DNA of 32,737 nucleotides from Pseudomonadota bacterium (GTDB lineage: Bacteria; UBA10199; 2-02-FULL-44-16; JAAZCA01), in contig JAFGMW010000037.1 in NCBI GenBank assembly GCA_016927275.1, positions 1 through 32,737 of the forward strand, in the 5' to 3' direction. The translations under genes were made by a program, and so were the position numbers. The notes below the pieces were generated by a model, which did not search any database, was not told the DNA's origin, and saw nothing but the letters and a program-made list of their open reading frames with translations. This document shows, piece after piece, positions 16,798 through 28,810 of this stretch (positions are counted from its first letter, which is position 1; every line of letters starts with the position of its first letter).

Positions 16798-16818
16798 GTG
16801 ACTGGTGACTGGTGACTG
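16798..16818. repeat. heptanucleotide repeat between gdhA and hemW
   Basis: Three perfect tandem copies of GTGACTG begin five bases after the dehydrogenase stop codon. The third copy supplies the GTG start codon of hemW at 16812. The only purine-rich ribosome-binding candidate (AGAGG, 16791-16795) lies before the array, 16 bases from that GTG. Confidence 0.85.
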
Positions 16819-18107
16819 GCGTGTTTGGAATCTATATCCACATACCGTTCTGCCTTCGCAAGTGCGACTACTGCGACTTCTATTCCGAGCCGATCGGCCG
16901 CGAGCCGCCTCCGCATGTTGATTACCTGAGGGCGGTGCTGGCGCAGCTCGATGCCGATGCGCCCCTCTTCGCGGGGCGACGGGTCGCAAGCGTCTATTTC
17001 GGCGGCGGCACCCCCTCGCTCATGCCGCCTGCGTTCTTCAAGTCGGTGCTGGCCGCAGTCGCGGGCCGCTTCGCTGTGGAGGACGGGGCGGAGATCAGCT
17101 GCGAGGTCAACCCGGCCACCGCGGATCTCGGCTGGTTCCGATGCGCCCGCTCCGCAGGCGTCACTCGAATTTCCATCGGAGTCCAGTCGTTCCAGGAGAG
17201 ATTGCTCAAGGGGCTGGGGCGCGCGCACACCGCCGGGGATGCTATGAGGGCGATCGCCGAGGCGCAGGACTCGGGCTTCGGCTCGGTCGGCCTCGACCTC
17301 ATGTACGGGATCCCGGGCGAGGGGGTCCCCGATCTTGAGGACGACCTGCGCGTCGCCATGACCTTTCAGCCGCAGCACGTCTCGGCATACGCGCTGACCA
17401 TCGAGGAAGGCACGCCGCTCCAAAAGCGCTTGTCGGGACTCGGGACTCGGGACTCGGGACTCGGAATCCGGGTGGCTGCCTTGCCGAGTTCCGAATCCCG
17501 AATCCCGTATCCCGAGGCCTTGCCGTGCGACGACGAGCAGCTCAGGCAGATGCGAGTCGCGGCGCGCATGCTGGGTCGGGGCGGATGGCGGCGCTACGAG
17601 ATATCCAACTTCGCACGCGAGGGCTTCGAATGCCGCCACAACCTCGATTGCTGGCGCTACGGGGAGTATCTCGGTCTCGGCGCCGGGGCCGCCTCCTTCT
17701 TTAAATCGGGATCCGGGATCCGGGATCCGGGATCCGAAAAAGATGAAGAGGGATTTCCCGGTTCCGGGTCCCGGGTTCCGGGTTACGGGTTTGCAAGACG
17801 GTGGATCCAGTCACGCGACGTGCGCGCGTACATGGCCGGCGGGGCGGAGACGGAGGCGGCCGAGGACGAGCCGATAGACAGGCGAACCGCGATGGCCGAG
17901 TACTGTTTTCTCGGGTTGAGAAAGGCGGAGGGGATATCGATCGCGGACTTCGAGGCTGCGTTCGGCGTCGAGTTCGAGAAGGCCTTCCCGTCCGCCGCTG
18001 CTCGCCTGGCGGAAGAGGGGCTGGCGGAGCGCCGCGGCGGACGCCTCCGGCTGACCGGGCGCGGCATCGAGCTCTCAAGCACCGTCTCCGAATCGTTTCT
18101 CCCGTGA
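16812..18107 (+). CDS. hemW: HemW-type radical SAM protein carrying two repeat-derived insertions
   Basis: 431 residues of the HemN/HemW family (heme chaperone-like radical SAM). The 4Fe-4S site IPFCLRKCDYCDF has C14, C18, C21; YFGGGTPSL, EVNPATAD, GVQSFQERLLKGLGRAHT and GLDLMYGIPG follow, and the C-terminal HemW domain is present (FECRHNLDCWRYGEYLGLGAGAASF). Two segments are foreign to the family: residues about 208-235, between GTPLQKR and the LPCDDEQ segment, and about 299-327, between AASFFKS and FARRWIQSR. Both are encoded by heptanucleotide arrays (17434-17517 and 17707-17791) that keep the frame. The start is GTG 16812 within another heptad array, with GTG 16821 as the alternative; the conserved protein begins at residue 5. 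Confidence 0.9.
   Translation: MTGVFGIYIHIPFCLRKCDYCDFYSEPIGREPPPHVDYLRAVLAQLDADAPLFAGRRVASVYFGGGTPSLMPPAFFKSVLAAVAGRFAVEDGAEISCEVNPATADLGWFRCARSAGVTRISIGVQSFQERLLKGLGRAHTAGDAMRAIAEAQDSGFGSVGLDLMYGIPGEGVPDLEDDLRVAMTFQPQHVSAYALTIEEGTPLQKRLSGLGTRDSGLGIRVAALPSSESRIPYPEALPCDDEQLRQMRVAARMLGRGGWRRYEISNFAREGFECRHNLDCWRYGEYLGLGAGAASFFKSGSGIRDPGSEKDEEGFPGSGSRVPGYGFARRWIQSRDVRAYMAGGAETEAAEDEPIDRRTAMAEYCFLGLRKAEGISIADFEAAFGVEFEKAFPSAAARLAEEGLAERRGGRLRLTGRGIELSSTVSESFLP
17434..17517. repeat. paired inverted heptanucleotide arrays inside hemW (first)
   Basis: Four tandem CGGGACT units (17434-17461) run into CGGAATC. After a short spacer, an opposite-strand array (17484-17517) reads CGGGATA, CGGGATT, CGGGATT on the minus strand. 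The two halves can pair as an imperfect hairpin. The segment encodes about 28 residues rich in Ser, Gly and Arg, and the hemW frame is intact across it. Confidence 0.85.
17707..17791. repeat. paired heptanucleotide arrays inside hemW (second)
   Basis: Four perfect tandem CGGGATC units (17707-17734), each junction making a GGATCC palindrome, are followed after about 30 bases by CCGGGTC, CCGGGTT, CCGGGTT and ACGGGTT (17764-17791). It encodes a Gly, Ser, Pro and Arg-rich insertion of about 28 residues in frame. The unit differs from the first hemW array in its last bases. Confidence 0.85.
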
Positions 18108-23115: not shown

Positions 23116-23943
23116 ATGTTCGTCATATCCGTGGCAAATCAGAAGGGCGGTTCGGGAAAGACGACCACTGCCGTCAACCTCGCGGCATGCCTCGCGATGA
23201 AGGGGTGCCGCACGCTGCTGGTGGACCTGGACCCGCAGGCGCAGGCCTCGGCCTTTCTCCGGATCGAGGACCGCAGCCCGAAGGCCACGGTCTTCGACGG
23301 CATCCTGGAGACGCGGACGCAGGGCGTGAACGCCGACGACCTCTACGTCCCCATCACGCAGAGGCTCACGCTCATGCCCTCGGAGGGGATAACCGCCGAC
23401 GACGAGGCCAGGCTCGTGGCTCAGCCCAACCGGGAGAACCGGCTCAACGATCTGCTCGCCGGCGCGAAGGGGAAATACGACTTCGTGGTCGTCGACTGCC
23501 CGCCCACGCTCGGGATGCTCACCCGCAACGCCCTCATGGCCTCGAACGCCGTGCTGCTCACGGTTGAGACGAGCTTCCTCGCGCTCCACGGCATGGGCCG
23601 CATGCTCAACCTCGTGCAGGAGGTTCGAAACCACAAGGCGCTCAGGGTCTACGCGTTGGCCACGATGTTCGACGGCCGCACCTCTTTCTCCCGCGAGGTC
23701 CTCGAGGACATGCGCGGCTTCTTCGAGGAGATGATGCTCGACACGGTGATCCGCCAGAACGTGCGCCTCAAGGAGGCAGCGAGCCACGGCGAGCCCATAT
23801 TCACCTACTCGCGCAGCTCGCGCGGCGCCGAGGACTACAGGGCGATGACCGACGAGCTGCTCGGAAGGATCATCACCGACATAGAGGATTTCAAGAGCCT
23901 GGTGCCCGAGTACGGCCCCGACAACTCGGCCACTGACCACTGA
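23116..23943 (+). CDS. ParA/Soj-type ATPase
   Basis: 275 residues with the classic ParA layout: VANQKGGSGKTTTAVNLAA (deviant Walker A with the signature lysine, 6-24), LLVDLDPQAQAS (A' motif), VVVDCPPTLGMLTRNALMAS (Walker B) and TVETSFLALHGM. The C-terminus (AASHGEPIFTYSRSSRGAEDY) has the usual ParA ending. No ParB or parS-like gene is adjacent, so it is probably an orphan ParA that positions a cargo protein, perhaps the nuclease-like neighbour (inference). GGGGGAGGG precedes the ATG at 23116; a longer frame from 22894 overlaps the upstream gene and is rejected. The last residues (SATDH) and the TGA stop lie inside a heptanucleotide repeat. Confidence 0.93.
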   Translation: MFVISVANQKGGSGKTTTAVNLAACLAMKGCRTLLVDLDPQAQASAFLRIEDRSPKATVFDGILETRTQGVNADDLYVPITQRLTLMPSEGITADDEARLVAQPNRENRLNDLLAGAKGKYDFVVVDCPPTLGMLTRNALMASNAVLLTVETSFLALHGMGRMLNLVQEVRNHKALRVYALATMFDGRTSFSREVLEDMRGFFEEMMLDTVIRQNVRLKEAASHGEPIFTYSRSSRGAEDYRAMTDELLGRIITDIEDFKSLVPEYGPDNSATDH

Positions 23944-23978
23944 CCACAGATCACAGATCACTGATCACTGATCACTAA
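23930..23978. repeat. heptanucleotide repeat across the ParA stop codon
   Basis: Seven 7-base units: CCACTGA, CCACTGA, CCACAGA, TCACAGA, TCACTGA, TCACTGA, TCACTAA. The second unit contains the ParA stop (23941-23943). The array ends 18 bases before the next gene and leaves its GGAGGAG ribosome-binding site intact. Confidence 0.9.
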
Positions 23979-23996: not shown

Positions 23997-24263
23997 ATGG
24001 TTCTCGAGAGGGTGACATCCAAGTTCACGCGGAGGAAGATATCGAAGTGCGGCGAGGTGCCGCTCCGGCGCAACGACGCCGCTGCGCTGAGAAAGGACCT
24101 CGACGCATGGCTCACGGACAGGACCTGCTGGAACCACGAGGACTGGACGAACCTGCTGGGTGATCTGCGCCAGAAGGGCTACAGCGACCTGATAGACACG
24201 CCCAAGGGCCAGGAGCTCATCGGGCTGTACCTCGAGAACAACAAAAAGACCGCCAGCTGCTGA
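23997..24263 (+). CDS. small charged protein at the end of the ATPase operon
   Basis: 88 residues, not recognised. Basic N-terminus (TSKFTRRKISK), then a helical, tryptophan-containing core (DLDAWLTDRTCWNHEDWTNLL) with YSDLIDTPKGQELIGLYLENNKK. No signal peptide or membrane helix. A strong GGAGGAG precedes the ATG, and it follows the ParA gene by 53 bases of mostly heptad repeat, so it is likely the fourth member of the operon. Its TGA abuts the glycogen phosphorylase stop in TGATCA. It could be a partner or regulator of one of the ATPases; that is a guess from position. Confidence 0.7.
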   Translation: MVLERVTSKFTRRKISKCGEVPLRRNDAAALRKDLDAWLTDRTCWNHEDWTNLLGDLRQKGYSDLIDTPKGQELIGLYLENNKKTASC

Positions 24264-26738
24264 TCAGTACTCCTCGGGATTCGTGCCCCAGACCTTCGAG
24301 GAGTACTCCGCCACAGTGCGATCGCTCGAGAAGCGGCCCATCCTCGCTGCGGTGAGGATGGCCCGCTTCGTCCATTCGCGCTTGTCGTTGAAGAGCTTTG
24401 CCGCCTCCCGCTGCTTCTCGGCGTAGGAGCCGAAGTCGGCGAGCACGAAGAAGCGGTCGCCCCCGCGCAGGAGCGAATCCACGATCGGCTGGAATATGCC
24501 CGGCTCGCGCCAGTTGAAGTGGTCCTCGGCGATCATCTGCACCGCCCTGCGCAGGCGCTCGTCCTTCTCGAGGCAGCTCATGGGGAAGTATCCCTGGCGC
24601 CTCTGCTGCTCTATCTCCTCCTCGGTGTAGCCGAAGACGAAGAGGTTCTCGCGGCCCACGGTCTCGGCGATCTCGATGTTCGCGCCGTCCATGGTCCCTA
24701 TGGTCAGCGCGCCGTTGAGCGCGAGCTTCATGTTGCCGGTGCCGGAGGCCTCGGTGCCCGCGGTCGATATCTGCTCGGAGAGGTCGGCGGCCGGGATGAT
24801 CCTCTCAGCCAGCGACACCGAGTAGTTCCTGAGGAAAACGACCTTGAGCACGTCCTTCGTCGCCGGGTCCAGGTTGATCGTGCCGGCCACCGAGTTTATG
24901 AGCTTTATGATGAGCTTGGCCATCCTGTAGCCCGGGGCCGCCTTGCCCGCGAAGATCACGGTCCTGGGCGTGAACTCCGCGTTCGGGTTGTCCTTGATCT
25001 CGTTGTAGAGCGCGATCGCGTGCAGGATGTTGAGCAGCTGCCTCTTGTACTCGTGTATCCTCTTTATCTGCACGTCGAACATGGAGTTCACGTCCACGTC
25101 GATCCCCATCGTGTCGCCTATGTACTGCGCCAGCGAGTTCTTGTTGGACCACTTCGCGCTCTGCCACGCCTCGGAGAACTCCTCGTCCGACGCGAAATCC
25201 TCCAGCCTCCTGAGCTCGTTGAGGTCCAGCGCCCAGCCGTCGCCGATGCGCGAATCTATCACCTCGGAGAGGATCGGGTTGGCCTTCTGCAGCCAGCGGC
25301 GCTGCGTGATTCCGTTTGTGATGTTGATGAACTTGTTGGGATAGAACTCGTTGAAGTCGGGGAAGATGCGCTCCTTCAGTATCCTCGTGTGCAGCTCCGC
25401 CACGCCGTTGACCGCGAAGCTGCCCACTATGGCCAGGTTGGCCATCCTCACCCTCTTCTCCGCGCCCTCCTCGATGATCGACATCCTGCGCAGCCTGTCC
25501 ACGTCGCCCGGGTAGACCTTGCCCACCTCGTCCATGAACCGGCGATTGATCTCGTAGACGATGTCCATGTGCCTGGGGAGCAGCGACTGCATGATGGACA
25601 CCGGCCATCTCTCGAGCGCCTCGGCCATGATGGTGTGGTTGGTGTACGCGAACGTGCGGCGCACGATGTCCCATGACAGCTCCCAGGGCATCCGCTCCTC
25701 GTCGAGCAGTATCCTCATGAGCTCCGCGATGGCTATCGACGGGTGCGTGTCGTTGAGCTGGATCGCGATCTTCTCGTGGAAGTCGGAGAGGTCCTTGTGC
25801 TGCCGCTTGTGGATCCTGATTATGTCCTGCAGCGTGGCCGAGACGAAGAAGTACTGCTGCTTGAGGCGGAGCACCTTGCCCGAGTAGTTGTCGTCGTTCG
25901 GGTAGAGGAACTTGGAGATCGCCTCCTGGCCGCTCTTGCGCCGCACCGCCTGCAGGTAGTCGCCGGTCTGGAAGAGGGTGAAGTCCACGTCCTGGGTGGA
26001 CTTGGCCTGCCACAGCCGCAGGTTGTTCACCACGTTGTTGCCGTAGCCGGGCACCGGTATGTCGTACGCGACCGCCATCACGTCGTCGGTGTCGACCCAG
26101 GTGTGTATGGTCTCGCCGGAGCGGAGATGGGCCTTCTGGACGTTGCCGCCGAATCGTATCCTGTAGGTGAGCTCGGGGCGGATCACCTCCCACGGGTTGC
26201 GGTAGGTGAGCCAGTTGTCCGGCACCTCGACCTGATAGCCGTTCTCGATCTTCTGATCGAAGATGCCGTACTCGTAGCGCAGGCCGTAGGCGTATGCGGG
26301 CAGCCTCTGCGTGGCCATGGAGTCGAGGAAGCACGCGGCGAGCCTTCCCAGGCCGCCGTTGCCGAGCCCCATGTCGTGCTCGATCTCGCGGATCTCGTCG
26401 AGCTTGTAGCCCAGGTCGTCGAGTATCTGGGCGCACTCCTCGTAGTACCGCAGGTTGTTGAGCGCGTTGCCGAGCAGGCGGCCCATGAGGTACTCGAGCG
26501 AGAGGTAGTAGACGCGCTTGGCGTCGTGCTCGCGATATTGCCGCTGCGTGCGCAGCCAGCGGCGGATCAGCCTGTCGCGGATCGACATGGCCAGCGCGTT
26601 GTAGGCGTCCTCCTTGGTGACCGTGCTCTTGTCCTTGACCAGCGACAGCTCGATGTGCTCGGCGAACTGGTTGGCCAGCGAGTAGGTGTCCGCGGTCTTG
26701 TGGTCCGTGAAGAAGACTGTGTAGTCCGGTTTGCTCAT
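24264..26738 (-). CDS. glgP: glycogen/alpha-glucan phosphorylase
   Basis: Releases glucose 1-phosphate from glycogen or maltodextrins using pyridoxal phosphate. 824 residues, standard for the family. Seen: LEYLMGRLLGNALNNL and the LGNGGLGRLAACFLDSMAT signature, QLNDTHPSIAIAELMR, FTNHT-like YTNHTIMAEALE, and the PLP site EASGTGNMKLALNGA with the Schiff-base lysine K671, then GTMDGANIEI. The start ATG has no Shine-Dalgarno; a weak GTGACA with TAATCT 17 bases on ends only about 8 bases before the ATG, so a leaderless or very short leader transcript is possible. It lies 46 bases after the M32 carboxypeptidase gene and may be co-transcribed. No other glycogen gene is in the window. Confidence 0.97.
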   Translation of the reverse strand: MSKPDYTVFFTDHKTADTYSLANQFAEHIELSLVKDKSTVTKEDAYNALAMSIRDRLIRRWLRTQRQYREHDAKRVYYLSLEYLMGRLLGNALNNLRYYEECAQILDDLGYKLDEIREIEHDMGLGNGGLGRLAACFLDSMATQRLPAYAYGLRYEYGIFDQKIENGYQVEVPDNWLTYRNPWEVIRPELTYRIRFGGNVQKAHLRSGETIHTWVDTDDVMAVAYDIPVPGYGNNVVNNLRLWQAKSTQDVDFTLFQTGDYLQAVRRKSGQEAISKFLYPNDDNYSGKVLRLKQQYFFVSATLQDIIRIHKRQHKDLSDFHEKIAIQLNDTHPSIAIAELMRILLDEERMPWELSWDIVRRTFAYTNHTIMAEALERWPVSIMQSLLPRHMDIVYEINRRFMDEVGKVYPGDVDRLRRMSIIEEGAEKRVRMANLAIVGSFAVNGVAELHTRILKERIFPDFNEFYPNKFINITNGITQRRWLQKANPILSEVIDSRIGDGWALDLNELRRLEDFASDEEFSEAWQSAKWSNKNSLAQYIGDTMGIDVDVNSMFDVQIKRIHEYKRQLLNILHAIALYNEIKDNPNAEFTPRTVIFAGKAAPGYRMAKLIIKLINSVAGTINLDPATKDVLKVVFLRNYSVSLAERIIPAADLSEQISTAGTEASGTGNMKLALNGALTIGTMDGANIEIAETVGRENLFVFGYTEEEIEQQRRQGYFPMSCLEKDERLRRAVQMIAEDHFNWREPGIFQPIVDSLLRGGDRFFVLADFGSYAEKQREAAKLFNDKREWTKRAILTAARMGRFSSDRTVAEYSSKVWGTNPEEY

Positions 26739-26784: not shown

Positions 26785-28296
26785 TCACGCACCTCTGTCC
26801 ATGCCGTAGATCGAGCCGTACTTCGACTCTACGTAATCCAGGAAGTGCCGCTGGTCGAGCGGCTCGCCCGTGGCCCTCTCGAGGAGCTCCGAGGTCCGGT
26901 AGCGCCTGCCGTGCCGGTGGATCCTTTCCCTCAGCCAGCCGAGGATCGGCTCGAGTCTCCCGCGGGCGATCATCGCCTCGGCGCGCGGGATGTCTCGGCG
27001 CATCCGCGCCCAGAGCTGGGCCGCTGCGAGGTTGCCGATGAGGTAGGTGGGGAAGTATCCGATGAGCCCGTCGGACCAGTGCGTGTCCTGCAGCACCCCC
27101 TGCGCGTCGTCTCCGGGCGTTATGCCGAGCAGGCTCGCCATTCCCTCGTTCCAGAGCCCCGGCAGATCGTCCACCCCGATCTCGCCCGCGATGAGGTCCT
27201 TCTCGAGACCGTAACGCAGGACTATGTGGAGGTTGTAGGTGACCTCGTCCGACTCCACGCGGATCGGCGTCGACTTCACCCGGCACAGCGCCCTGTAAAA
27301 CTCCTCGGGAGATGCCTTCGCCATCTGCCTCGGGAACCGTTTGCGCAGCATCGGGACGATGAGCCTCGCGAACGGGAGGCTGCGTCCGACCACGTTCTCC
27401 CAGAACCGCGACTGCGACTCGTGGATGCCCAGCGACACCGCCTCGGCCAGCGGCGTGCCGAGATGCTTGGCCGGCAGCCCCTGCTCGTAGAGGGCGTGCC
27501 CCGATTCGTGGATCACGCCGTAGAGCGCCGCCGGGAGCCACCGCTCGTCGTATCGCGTGGTTATGCGAACGTCGGTGGGCGCGATCCCGCAGCAGAACGG
27601 GTGCACCGAGCGGTCCATGCGCGAGGCCTCGGCGTCCACCCCCAGCATCTCCATGACGTCGCGGCAGAGCGCCTCCTGCTCCCTCTCGGGGTAGCCCCTC
27701 TTGAGTATCGAGTTGTCCGGATGGTTTTTCGACGCCAGGAGCCGCTTCGCGATCGGCGCGAGCCCCTCCGCGAGCCCCCGGACGATCGGGTCGAGCTTCT
27801 CCACCGTCATGCCCGGTTCGTACTGGTCGAGCAGCGCGTCGTATGGGTGGCCCTTGTATCCCACGCACTCCGCCTCGCGCCTTATGAGGGCGACCACCTT
27901 CCTGAGCCACGGCGAGAACGCCTTGAAGTCGCGCGCCCTGCGGGCCTTGATCCAGGCCTGGTGGGCGAGCGTGGTCACGCGCGCCAGCTCCTGCACCAGC
28001 TCCCTGGGCACCTTGGCCGCCCGGGTGTGGTCGCGCAGCCACTCCCGCACGCAGACCCGCCGGTCCGGGCTGAGGCGCCCTGGCCTCCTCGCGAGCCCCT
28101 TGAGCAGCCTGCCGATCCTCTTGTCCACGATCTTGTCGTGGATCACCCCTGCGAGGGCTGCCGACTGCTCCGCCCGGGAGCCGGCCGCCTTCGGCGGCAT
28201 CATGGTCTCCTGGTCCCAGCCGAGGAGCCCGGCTGCCGAGCCGATCGCGGAGGCCTCCTTCATGTGCCGCTCTATCTCGAGGTAATCCCTGTTCAT
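26785..28296 (-). CDS. M32-family metallocarboxypeptidase
   Basis: 503 residues of the thermostable carboxypeptidase 1 (M32) family, cytoplasmic zinc or cobalt enzymes that remove C-terminal residues from peptides. Seen: WDQETMMPPKA near the N-terminus, the DxRxT signature DVRIT (242-246), the zinc site HESGH (H263, E264, H267) followed by ALYEQGLP, GIHESQSRFWENVVGRS, and the C-terminal HWSDGLIGYFPTYLIGNL (HWxxGxxGYFPTYxxGN), all family hallmarks. The ATG at 28296 fits the usual N-terminus; a start at 28332 would add 12 glycine-rich residues. It follows the OmpA-type lipoprotein gene by 64 bases that contain a heptanucleotide array. Confidence 0.96.
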   Translation of the reverse strand: MNRDYLEIERHMKEASAIGSAAGLLGWDQETMMPPKAAGSRAEQSAALAGVIHDKIVDKRIGRLLKGLARRPGRLSPDRRVCVREWLRDHTRAAKVPRELVQELARVTTLAHQAWIKARRARDFKAFSPWLRKVVALIRREAECVGYKGHPYDALLDQYEPGMTVEKLDPIVRGLAEGLAPIAKRLLASKNHPDNSILKRGYPEREQEALCRDVMEMLGVDAEASRMDRSVHPFCCGIAPTDVRITTRYDERWLPAALYGVIHESGHALYEQGLPAKHLGTPLAEAVSLGIHESQSRFWENVVGRSLPFARLIVPMLRKRFPRQMAKASPEEFYRALCRVKSTPIRVESDEVTYNLHIVLRYGLEKDLIAGEIGVDDLPGLWNEGMASLLGITPGDDAQGVLQDTHWSDGLIGYFPTYLIGNLAAAQLWARMRRDIPRAEAMIARGRLEPILGWLRERIHRHGRRYRTSELLERATGEPLDQRHFLDYVESKYGSIYGMDRGA

Positions 28297-28334: not shown

Positions 28335-28362
28335 CCGAGTCACGAGTTACGAGTCACGAGTC
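28335..28362. repeat. heptanucleotide repeat at the end of the OmpA-type lipoprotein gene
   Basis: Four 7-base units: CCGAGTC, ACGAGTT, ACGAGTC, ACGAGTC. On the minus strand the array starts at the TGA stop of the lipoprotein gene (stop codon 28363-28361) and continues toward the carboxypeptidase start. Confidence 0.85.
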
Positions 28363-28810
28363 ACGGCCTTGCCTTTATGATGTGTATCTCCACCCTGCGG
28401 TTCTTCGCCCTGTTCGCGGGGCTGTCGTTGGGCAGAAGCGGCTTCGTCCTCCCGTAGCCCACGGTCCTCATGCGGCCGGCGTCGATCCCGTTTTTGAGCA
28501 GGTAGTCGTAGACCGCCCGCGCCCGCCGCTCGGAGAGCTGCTGGTTGTAGAGGTCCGAGCCCACGATGTCGCAGTGGCCCTCGATCGACAGATCGAGCGA
28601 TCTGTTCTGTTTTGCGAGCTTTATGTCCTCGTCCAGCACCCTCTTGCCCTCGGGCTTGAGCGCTGCCCTGTCGAAGTCGAAGTGCACCGACCCGAGGGTC
28701 GTGACCTTCACGGTCTTGCCGCAGTCCTTGCATCGGGCCGCGCAGCCGGCGGCAGCTATCGCCGCCAGGGCGGCCAGCACCAATGCGCTGCACATGAGTC
28801 TCTTTGACAT
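28361..28810 (-). CDS. OmpA-family peptidoglycan-binding lipoprotein
   Basis: 149 residues. A lipoprotein signal peptide with an AAGC lipobox (acylated C23) is followed by a short CKDC-containing stretch and an OmpA C-terminal-like domain from about 42 to 145: VHFDFDRAALKPEG, IEGHCDIVGSDLYNQQLSERRARAVYDYL, GYGRTKPL and NRRVEIHI. It resembles Pal but is a second, divergent copy without the Pal-type DERG motif (DIVG here). It would tie the outer membrane to the wall. GAGGAGG lies about 8 bases before the ATG. The two cysteines after the lipidated one (C27 and C30) are unusual for the family and could form a disulphide. The last few residues border a heptad repeat. Confidence 0.9.
   Translation of the reverse strand: MSKRLMCSALVLAALAAIAAAGCAARCKDCGKTVKVTTLGSVHFDFDRAALKPEGKRVLDEDIKLAKQNRSLDLSIEGHCDIVGSDLYNQQLSERRARAVYDYLLKNGIDAGRMRTVGYGRTKPLLPNDSPANRAKNRRVEIHIIKARP

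Follow-up and report, generated by a model that had tools for sequence, protein, structure and literature searches.

Paired heptad repeats in frame in two loops of a bacterial HemW, at sites that hold unrelated repeats in related genomes

Two loops of a HemW from an uncultured bacterium are encoded by paired arrays of seven-base repeats, and the main finding of this work is that such sites recur and the repeats in them do not. The window analysed is the whole 32,737-nucleotide stretch of contig C37 of genome G000 (1.81 Mb, 119 contigs). The same phenomenon is found beyond HemW in ValRS, UvrA and QueG and, more weakly, in ProRS. Unrelated repeats lie in the same ValRS, UvrA, HemW and QueG loops of different genera, which suggests that it is the place that recurs, not the element. 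We consider it probable that dispersed heptad elements were inserted in frame and survived in tolerant loops. HemW and other essential enzymes apparently serve as landing places for selfish DNA, and the insertion of such non-coding DNA may be a route by which essential proteins are lengthened.

Paired heptad arrays within hemW

The hemW gene (16812–18107, plus strand) encodes a radical SAM heme chaperone whose ORF of 431 residues is open throughout. The product matches TIGR00539 at 250.5 bits (cut-off 205.4) and carries the Pfam domains Radical_SAM and HemN_C. Its AlphaFold model, built with 28 sequences (mean pLDDT 87.6), aligns with E. coli HemN (1olt) with a Z of 34.2 and an rmsd of 3.1 over 373 residues, the next entry scoring 16.7; the protein is a HemW by both the equivalog model and its radical SAM fold. 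Translation could begin at GTG 16812 or, as we guess more likely, at GTG 16821. An array of GTGACTG × 3.1 (16798–16819, plus strand, by TRF) fills the space from the glutamate dehydrogenase stop (16792) to the start of hemW, so the 5′ region of hemW is made of repeat, and one GTG inside the array could even be the start codon. This array, which contains TGA, is of a common intergenic type in the genome.

A preliminary description of this DNA had placed period-7 arrays in frame at HemW residues of about 208–235 and 299–327. Both are recovered by TRF, and the reading frame is kept through them, in an ORF that matches TIGR00539. At site 1 (plus strand) the first arm, TCGGGAC × 4.6 (17433–17464; GGGACTC in another phase), is G-rich on the sense strand, with a GGG tract every 7 bases, four in all, from 17435. 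It is followed by a degenerate end of the arm and a loop (17465–17490, from sequence, fold and inverted-repeat search) and by a second arm, CCGAATC × 3.6 (17491–17515), that pairs with the first. Site 2 (plus strand) comprises CGGGATC × 4.3 (17707–17736), a spacer that is mostly the loop of the predicted fold (17737–17754) and TTCCGGG × 5.3 with 86% matches (17755–17791). The elements span about 85–87 bases (17433–17519 and 17707–17791). The four arrays encode residues 208–218 and 227–235 at site 1 and 299–309 and 315–327 at site 2, and the predicted insert sequences include SGLGTRDSGLGIR and SGSGIRDPGSEK. Sense-strand runs of the pattern G3N4 × 4 begin at 17435, 17708 and 17766. The site 1 units GGGACTC and GGGATTC fit GGGANTN, the site 2 unit GGGATCC does not, and GGGAATC is absent from both strands of hemW.

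Each site had also been described as a hairpin-forming pair of a plus-sense array and a partly complementary one. The predicted folds bear this out at both sites: site 1 reaches −57.3 kcal/mol (z −5.65), equalled by none of 200 shuffles, and site 2 −53.1 kcal/mol (z −4.33), equalled by one of 200. For site 2 the description holds less neatly. An ungapped inverted-repeat search returned arms at site 1 only (17436–17471 and 17484–17519, 36 bases each, 81% complementary), and the second array of site 2 resembles the first slightly more in direct (0.75) than in inverted orientation (0.71), because GGGATCC is nearly self-complementary.

We compared HemW across 123 aligned rows, namely the window, 42 of 58 other matching genomes and the best 80 of 339 named-record loci; two rows are a single gene of genome G001 (L010 and L039), and another two (L013 and L040) appear identical over the displayed blocks. 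The site 1 stretch is 42 residues long in G000 vs 19 in two genomes of the same family (G002 and G003), and the site 2 stretch 46 vs 23 in both, so that each site is about 23 residues longer in G000; filled and empty sites are compared here between genomes of one family, a comparison that shows neither an insertion event nor a duplicated target. Measured between chosen anchors, the median loop lengths are 18 and 7 residues, and those of G000 are 42 and 36. The repeat boundaries coincide with the alignment gaps, as the preliminary description had anticipated, and no close relative among the 123 rows carries the segments as ordinary conserved protein.

In the AlphaFold model, pLDDT falls below 50 only at residues 211–231, 299–302 and 316–321 (numbered from GTG 16821). 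The model of HemW from G001, the nearest relative found, does so only at 211–217, 219–229 and 300–324. Both inserts are thus predicted to be disordered, and are probably floppy loops.

The same loops in related genomes

Nine repeat-bearing sites in five G000 proteins were compared with their counterparts: HemW 1–2, ValRS 1–3, UvrA, ProRS and QueG 1–2. G001 carries a repeat at seven of the nine (none at ValRS 1 or ValRS 3): four of these hold heptads, two an 80-bp palindrome and one an octad hairpin. The palindrome occupies HemW 1 and QueG 1, and the octad hairpin ValRS 2. Heptads lie at HemW 2 (as a hairpin), at UvrA, at QueG 2 (CGAGTCA) and at ProRS, where they are C-rich and those of G000 are G-rich. 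ProRS is the weakest of the seven, the loops of other relatives being nearly as long. By eye, G002 has no repeat at any of the nine sites, and G003 may carry another repeat at QueG 1. The HemW segments had been said to have no counterpart in the family layout. This stands for G002 and G003, which lack both inserts, and fails for G001, with its heptad hairpin at site 2 and its palindrome at site 1.

At HemW 2 and UvrA, G000 and G001 have the site and the paired heptad layout in common, but not the unit. We read this as an old insertion followed by turnover of the unit; repeated insertion would look alike.

HemW site 1 holds heptads in G000, the 80-bp palindrome in G001, an IPASAGMT palindrome in G005 and a fourth palindrome in G034. 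These four repeats fold with z of −4.6 to −6.3, and all four kinds recur in their own genomes. The UvrA site of G005 holds a copy of the same genome's HemW 1 palindrome (77% over 66 bases). HemW 2 of G005 (L011, residues 296–329) carries a different palindrome, which recurs in opposite orientation near residue 101 of the same protein (93% over 29 bases). All six HemW palindromes tested have further copies in their own genomes. Searched as one joined query, with at most 40 first-look candidates scored per genome, they gave at least 70 matches in G001, 43 in G005, 32 in G034, 28 in G019, 23 in G016 and 16 in G000, counts that include the query places, the two orientations of a single copy and, for G019, numerous short fragments. 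Many of the peptides coded by such palindromes presumably resemble ones in other bacterial genomes.

At HemW site 1, the four distinct loops longer than 25 residues are the four hairpins above. At site 2, the window, G001 and G005 pass z −4, a palindrome of G019 scores −2.9 and an ordinary-looking loop of G029 scores −3.5. Length alone does not mark a repeat there, because several long loops (G037, G032, G018, G022, G044 and G041) have no unusual structure by fold z. Away from the sites, 4 of 242 windows in ten hemW genes fall below z −4: palindromes in G005 and G016, one G003 window probably before the start codon and an ordinary one in G019. Among 122 HemW rows, leaving aside arrays before residue 2, the five period-7 arrays all lie at the two sites; period-8 arrays occur at residues 107 and 268, and one of period 6 at 431. 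The off-site palindrome of G016 (L022) lies in frame near HemW residue 52, reading GGGGCGAAT..ATCGCCCC, at a position without a repeat in the other genomes viewed.

A fold scan of the five proteins in 30 genes placed 14 of 196 site windows below z −4, vs 1 of 1546 others, and 10 vs 1 once the four hits of G000 itself are set aside. Only three of the nine G000 sites pass this threshold (HemW 1, ValRS 2 and QueG 1), and neither the octad hairpin in ValRS of G001 nor the UvrA palindrome of G005 reaches it. All six ungapped inverted repeats with a score of at least 13 lie at sites, and shuffles gave none.

UvrA was surveyed in 30 of 39 matching genomes of the class and ValRS in 30 of 41. Repeats account for four of the five longest UvrA loops: G000 and G001 carry heptads there, G005 a palindrome and G011 a palindrome of the SPLPQG type. 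The fifth loop, in G017, is ambiguous. The tandem arrays of ValRS number 17, of which 12 have period 7 and 5 have period 8. None has a period of 2–6 or 9–12, even when the filter on 1–3-base units is lifted, and shuffles gave no arrays of periods 4–12. Site 1 arrays occur in G000, G021, G025, G026 and G017, where the units are unrelated (CGGGACT, GGACCAT, GTGGATG, AGAGGTC and TCAAAAA, the last in G017) and several stand as single arrays. Site 2 is filled in G000, G001, G021, G010, G004 and G025, and site 3 in G000 and G023; off-site arrays lie at residues 642 and 755, in G036 and G017. With G000 left out, 12 of 14 arrays are at its three sites (p 1e-8 if positions are independent). The fold scan separates the sites less sharply in ValRS (9 of 387 windows at the sites vs 6 of 2126 others). 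Palindromes were seen by eye at site 1 in G023, G029, G024, G030 and G036, only that of G023 passing z −4 there.

The 80-bp palindrome of G001 also lies in frame between two domains of a PBP1C-like protein (L311, 283–2421, minus strand), and a table of Rickettsia elements lists a penicillin-binding protein 1C with RPE-6 and RPE-4 (PMC3767692). Of 20 further copies of the palindrome in G001, 14 have no ORF of at least 100 residues across them, and one of the remaining six is the copy in this PBP1C-like gene. The longest G000 matches to the PBP1C-like gene are only 30–34% identical, and on sequence grounds we take them for paralogs. The reciprocal comparison, of palindrome-bearing G001 genes with heptads in G000, is uninformative because no G000 ortholog was found.

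Heptad arrays across the host genome

The G000 sample comprised 21 stretches, the window and 20 others (272,745 bases, about 15% of the genome), of which the window and C116 were chosen for holding hits. It contains 32 period-7 arrays vs 1 in a Markov shuffle, and one of period 8. Across the whole genome the pattern GTGACTN × 3 gave 144 partly overlapping matches and its reversed control none, and plus/minus pairs stand close together among the matches listed. G3N4 × 4 has 51 matches in G000, overlaps counted, and 29 in G001, 16 of these in one poly-G run; genome searches of G002, G003, G005, G006 and G007 gave none. The pattern mirrors itself, so that a reversed control is meaningless for it.

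Array pairs 7–33 bases apart number seven among 20 G000 stretches. With fetched loci added to the sample, 13 of 20 pairs are more alike inverted and 7 more alike direct, so some pairs are not clean hairpins. In all 20 pairs the units resemble each other more inside an array than across the two arrays, a weak and biased test because the arrays were picked for internal likeness. A sample of G001 (L139–L158, 385 kb) holds 12 period-8 and 6 period-7 arrays, set against 32 period-7 arrays and a single period-8 array in 273 kb of G000, and the preferred unit length seems to differ between these related genera.

Beyond HemW, in-frame heptad arrays occur in ValRS (three), UvrA (unit GGGACCG), QueG (two), ProRS and a Fer2/Fer2_2 protein. 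The repeat-coded residues sit in alignment gaps in ValRS (against 1gax), UvrA (2r6f) and QueG (5d08). The insert in ProRS is small, at 3 residues more than 5ucm, and other relatives have loops nearly as long. UvrD, with an element near its C-terminus, and an ABC-ATPase ORF with two arrays are less secure: the UvrD gap is not demonstrable because the alignment to PcrA does not extend to the element, and both ABC-ATPase arrays precede the sole matched domain. The arrays of XseA, RuvX, ThyX and PurH precede the first domain and are probably upstream of the genuine start codon, and these genes are not counted.

All ten arrays lying wholly in genes in the sample are stop-free on the sense strand. 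Seven of the ten are so on both strands, compared with 2 of 18 intergenic arrays (p 0.003; four arrays overlapping gene ends left out), a test that is partly circular because seven of the ten come from the hit-chosen stretches and the gene caller ends genes at stops. The arithmetic is free of this circularity. Because 7 and 3 are coprime, each frame presents the same seven triplets, so that a heptad unit has a stop either in every frame or in no frame; an inverted pair shows each unit in both orientations.

Five of the 18 intergenic arrays start 4–5 bases past the upstream stop (L125 4533 and 5853, L126 6644, L131 17628 and window 16798), positions that rest on rough gene calls, as if insertion or survival favoured the spot beside a stop codon. 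By similarly rough calls, two further window arrays, CACTGAT × 6.6 (23930–23976) and CGAGTCA × 4.3 (28336–28365), extend into the ends of adjoining genes.

Origin of the inserts and comparison with known repeats

In the reading that we favour, the HemW segments would be copies of a dispersed G000 heptad element whose paired form runs from a G-rich heptad array through a short loop to a C-rich heptad array, roughly the complement of the first, and could fold as a hairpin. Copies would have inserted in frame into two exposed HemW loops and would be translated as floppy loops of about 23 extra residues each. Insertion would not be aimed at hemW. Selection would filter the copies, survival needing a net length that is a multiple of three, stop-free heptads and a loop tolerant of added length. 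After insertion, slippage would keep each array homogeneous, so that a site outlasts any one unit sequence in it. That elements arrive whole is suggested by the presence in ValRS of periods 7 and 8 only, and by the frequent inverted second arm, where slippage should favour threes. The original proposal, that a hairpin-forming unit entered HemW loops as palindromic elements enter Rickettsia proteins, is sustained by the absence of the insert from G002 and G003, by the coincidence of repeats with alignment gaps and by the predicted disorder.

The strongest alternative, to which we give a real but clearly minor chance, is that a short seed in a loop tolerant of length change expanded in place by slippage and that nothing moved. 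It would account for units that vary from genome to genome and even from one array of a pair to the other, for the unrelated and in several cases single heptad arrays at ValRS site 1, and for the family loop of G003, which reads LSG where the array begins LSG. Coding slippage should, however, favour periods of 3n, and ValRS has only 7 and 8; in-place growth also leaves the inverted second arm without explanation, and identical loops hold non-tandem palindromes that are dispersed repeats.

The preliminary description had left open whether two insertions in one gene reflect tolerance of surface loops or preferential targeting. The insertion reading leans to tolerance, because unrelated repeat families fill identical loops in other genomes. 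True targeting, in which a common insertion process prefers certain places for a reason related to DNA, RNA or transcription, is consistent with repeats at seven of nine G000 sites in G001 and with 12 of 14 ValRS arrays from other genomes at three loops. We nevertheless think it unlikely, since different genomes share loops and not repeats, and the disordered HemW loops would be expected to tolerate length. Protein-level selection is enough for the loops to recur. The wider claim that unrelated mobile hairpin repeats and arrays of heptads or octads dock repeatedly, across the class, at ValRS ~222–231 and ~440–470, UvrA ~248–268, HemW ~208–235 and ~299–327 and the QueG loops, through a common insertion mechanism with real site preference, is improbable as a whole. 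If it were true, 7- and 8-base arrays with arbitrary units would arise repeatedly, and coding DNA would grow by sevens and eights, not by codons. The loops offer natural replicates in which tolerance and targeting can be set against each other.

Retention for a function of the mRNA, through a hairpin or G-quadruplex that causes pausing or regulation, is decidedly unlikely. The sense-strand G3N4 × 4 runs of hemW would suit it, and GGGAATC repeats form quadruplexes in vitro (PMC4692102). Against it, G002 and G003 do without the insert, and the TCAAAAA array of G017 occupies the same ValRS loop with no G-tracts and is incapable of forming a quadruplex. Phase variation, in which gain or loss of one heptad would shift the frame and switch hemW off or on, fits a 7-base unit present in four perfect copies, yet arrays of the same kind lie in ValRS, ProRS and UvrA, whose silencing should be costly or lethal, and we hold it to be very improbable. 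Least credible of all is that the ribosome bypasses the segments or that they are cut from the RNA, leaving a protein without the extra residues: coding palindromes of Magnusiomyces mitochondria are bypassed, as cited in a nematomorph study (PMC6649704), but bypassing needs neither frame nor open codons, whereas all ten in-gene arrays are stop-free on the sense strand and the HemW, ValRS, UvrA, ProRS and QueG ORFs read through theirs.

Two further possibilities were set aside. Hairpin-templated correction between arms is disfavoured, since in all 20 pairs units match better inside an array than across the two arrays, and an assembly artefact is unlikely because independent genomes bear repeats at the same sites.

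Among known systems, in-frame palindromes of bacteria are described chiefly from Rickettsia and Wolbachia in the portions consulted of two reports (PMC3767692; PMC10969869). Rickettsia palindromic elements (RPEs) are given as 100–150 bp, with a range of 68–192 bp in Table 1 (PMC3767692, in part). In the same accounts they lie in frame in conserved genes, in solvent-exposed positions, at the same sites in orthologs and with different RPE groups at one site (PMC3767692; PMC10969869). The HemW repeats resemble them as hairpin repeats inside an ORF whose frame is kept. They differ from the RPE sequence families in being tandem heptads with a varying unit. Their length of about 85 bp lies below 100–150 bp and inside the Table 1 range, and by sequence they are unlikely to belong to a conserved RPE family. 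For RPEs, the authors consider hot spots or common origin and lean to a common origin of RPE-4, -6 and -7 in the text at hand (PMC3767692); here, by contrast, the heptads, octads and palindromes at one site are plainly unrelated.

The closest heptads are those of Xanthomonas and Nostoc (GGGAATC or GGGGA(C/T)T), reported in the text available to form quadruplexes, often in four units, to stand as convergent pairs of a plus and a minus array (70 such cases in one Xanthomonas genome and 75 in another) and to be 89–93% intergenic in these two genomes (PMC4692102). The G000 arrays share the G3N4 heptads and the convergent pairing, with the reservation that 7 of 20 pairs are more alike direct. Those of hemW fall outside the GGGAATC-type class, defined as (GGGANTN)n with at least one GGGAATC, and that text, so far as it is available, does not describe the Xanthomonas heptads as in-frame protein inserts; its main text never uses the term in-frame. 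Geobacter metallireducens has 49 elements with four GGGACCG heptads, also within genes and predicted to act as regulatory RNA (PMC2700814); the unit is that of the G000 UvrA insert, and the available part of the report does not discuss an effect on protein. The TAACTGA heptads of marine Beggiatoaceae are dispersed, and their stop content limits placement in ORFs; in the part of that paper at hand they are almost all direct, mostly intergenic or at ORF ends, and no two-arm element is described (PMC4679880). Nematomorph mitochondria have inverted repeats in conserved coding genes, which differ from those of HemW in their long perfect arms and mitochondrial setting, the available passages making no mention of heptads (PMC6649704). 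In the open-licence literature we found no report of heptad hairpins as in-frame protein inserts or of unrelated repeat families at the same protein sites. Odd loops in proteins from MAGs may, in short, be repeat DNA.

Matches to PF01797 (Y1 transposase) number four in G000, G001 and G005, three in G002 and G034 and two in G003, with none in G019; the counts, which include G002 and G003, both without a G3N4 × 4 match, say nothing of a transposase acting in trans on a MITE, an element with terminal inverted repeats and a target-site duplication. On contig C80 of G000 (27228–27855 and 24005–24367), at least five closely spaced places resemble an arm of a G034 palindrome, and the genome's strongest match to the Y1 transposase lies some 3 kb away.
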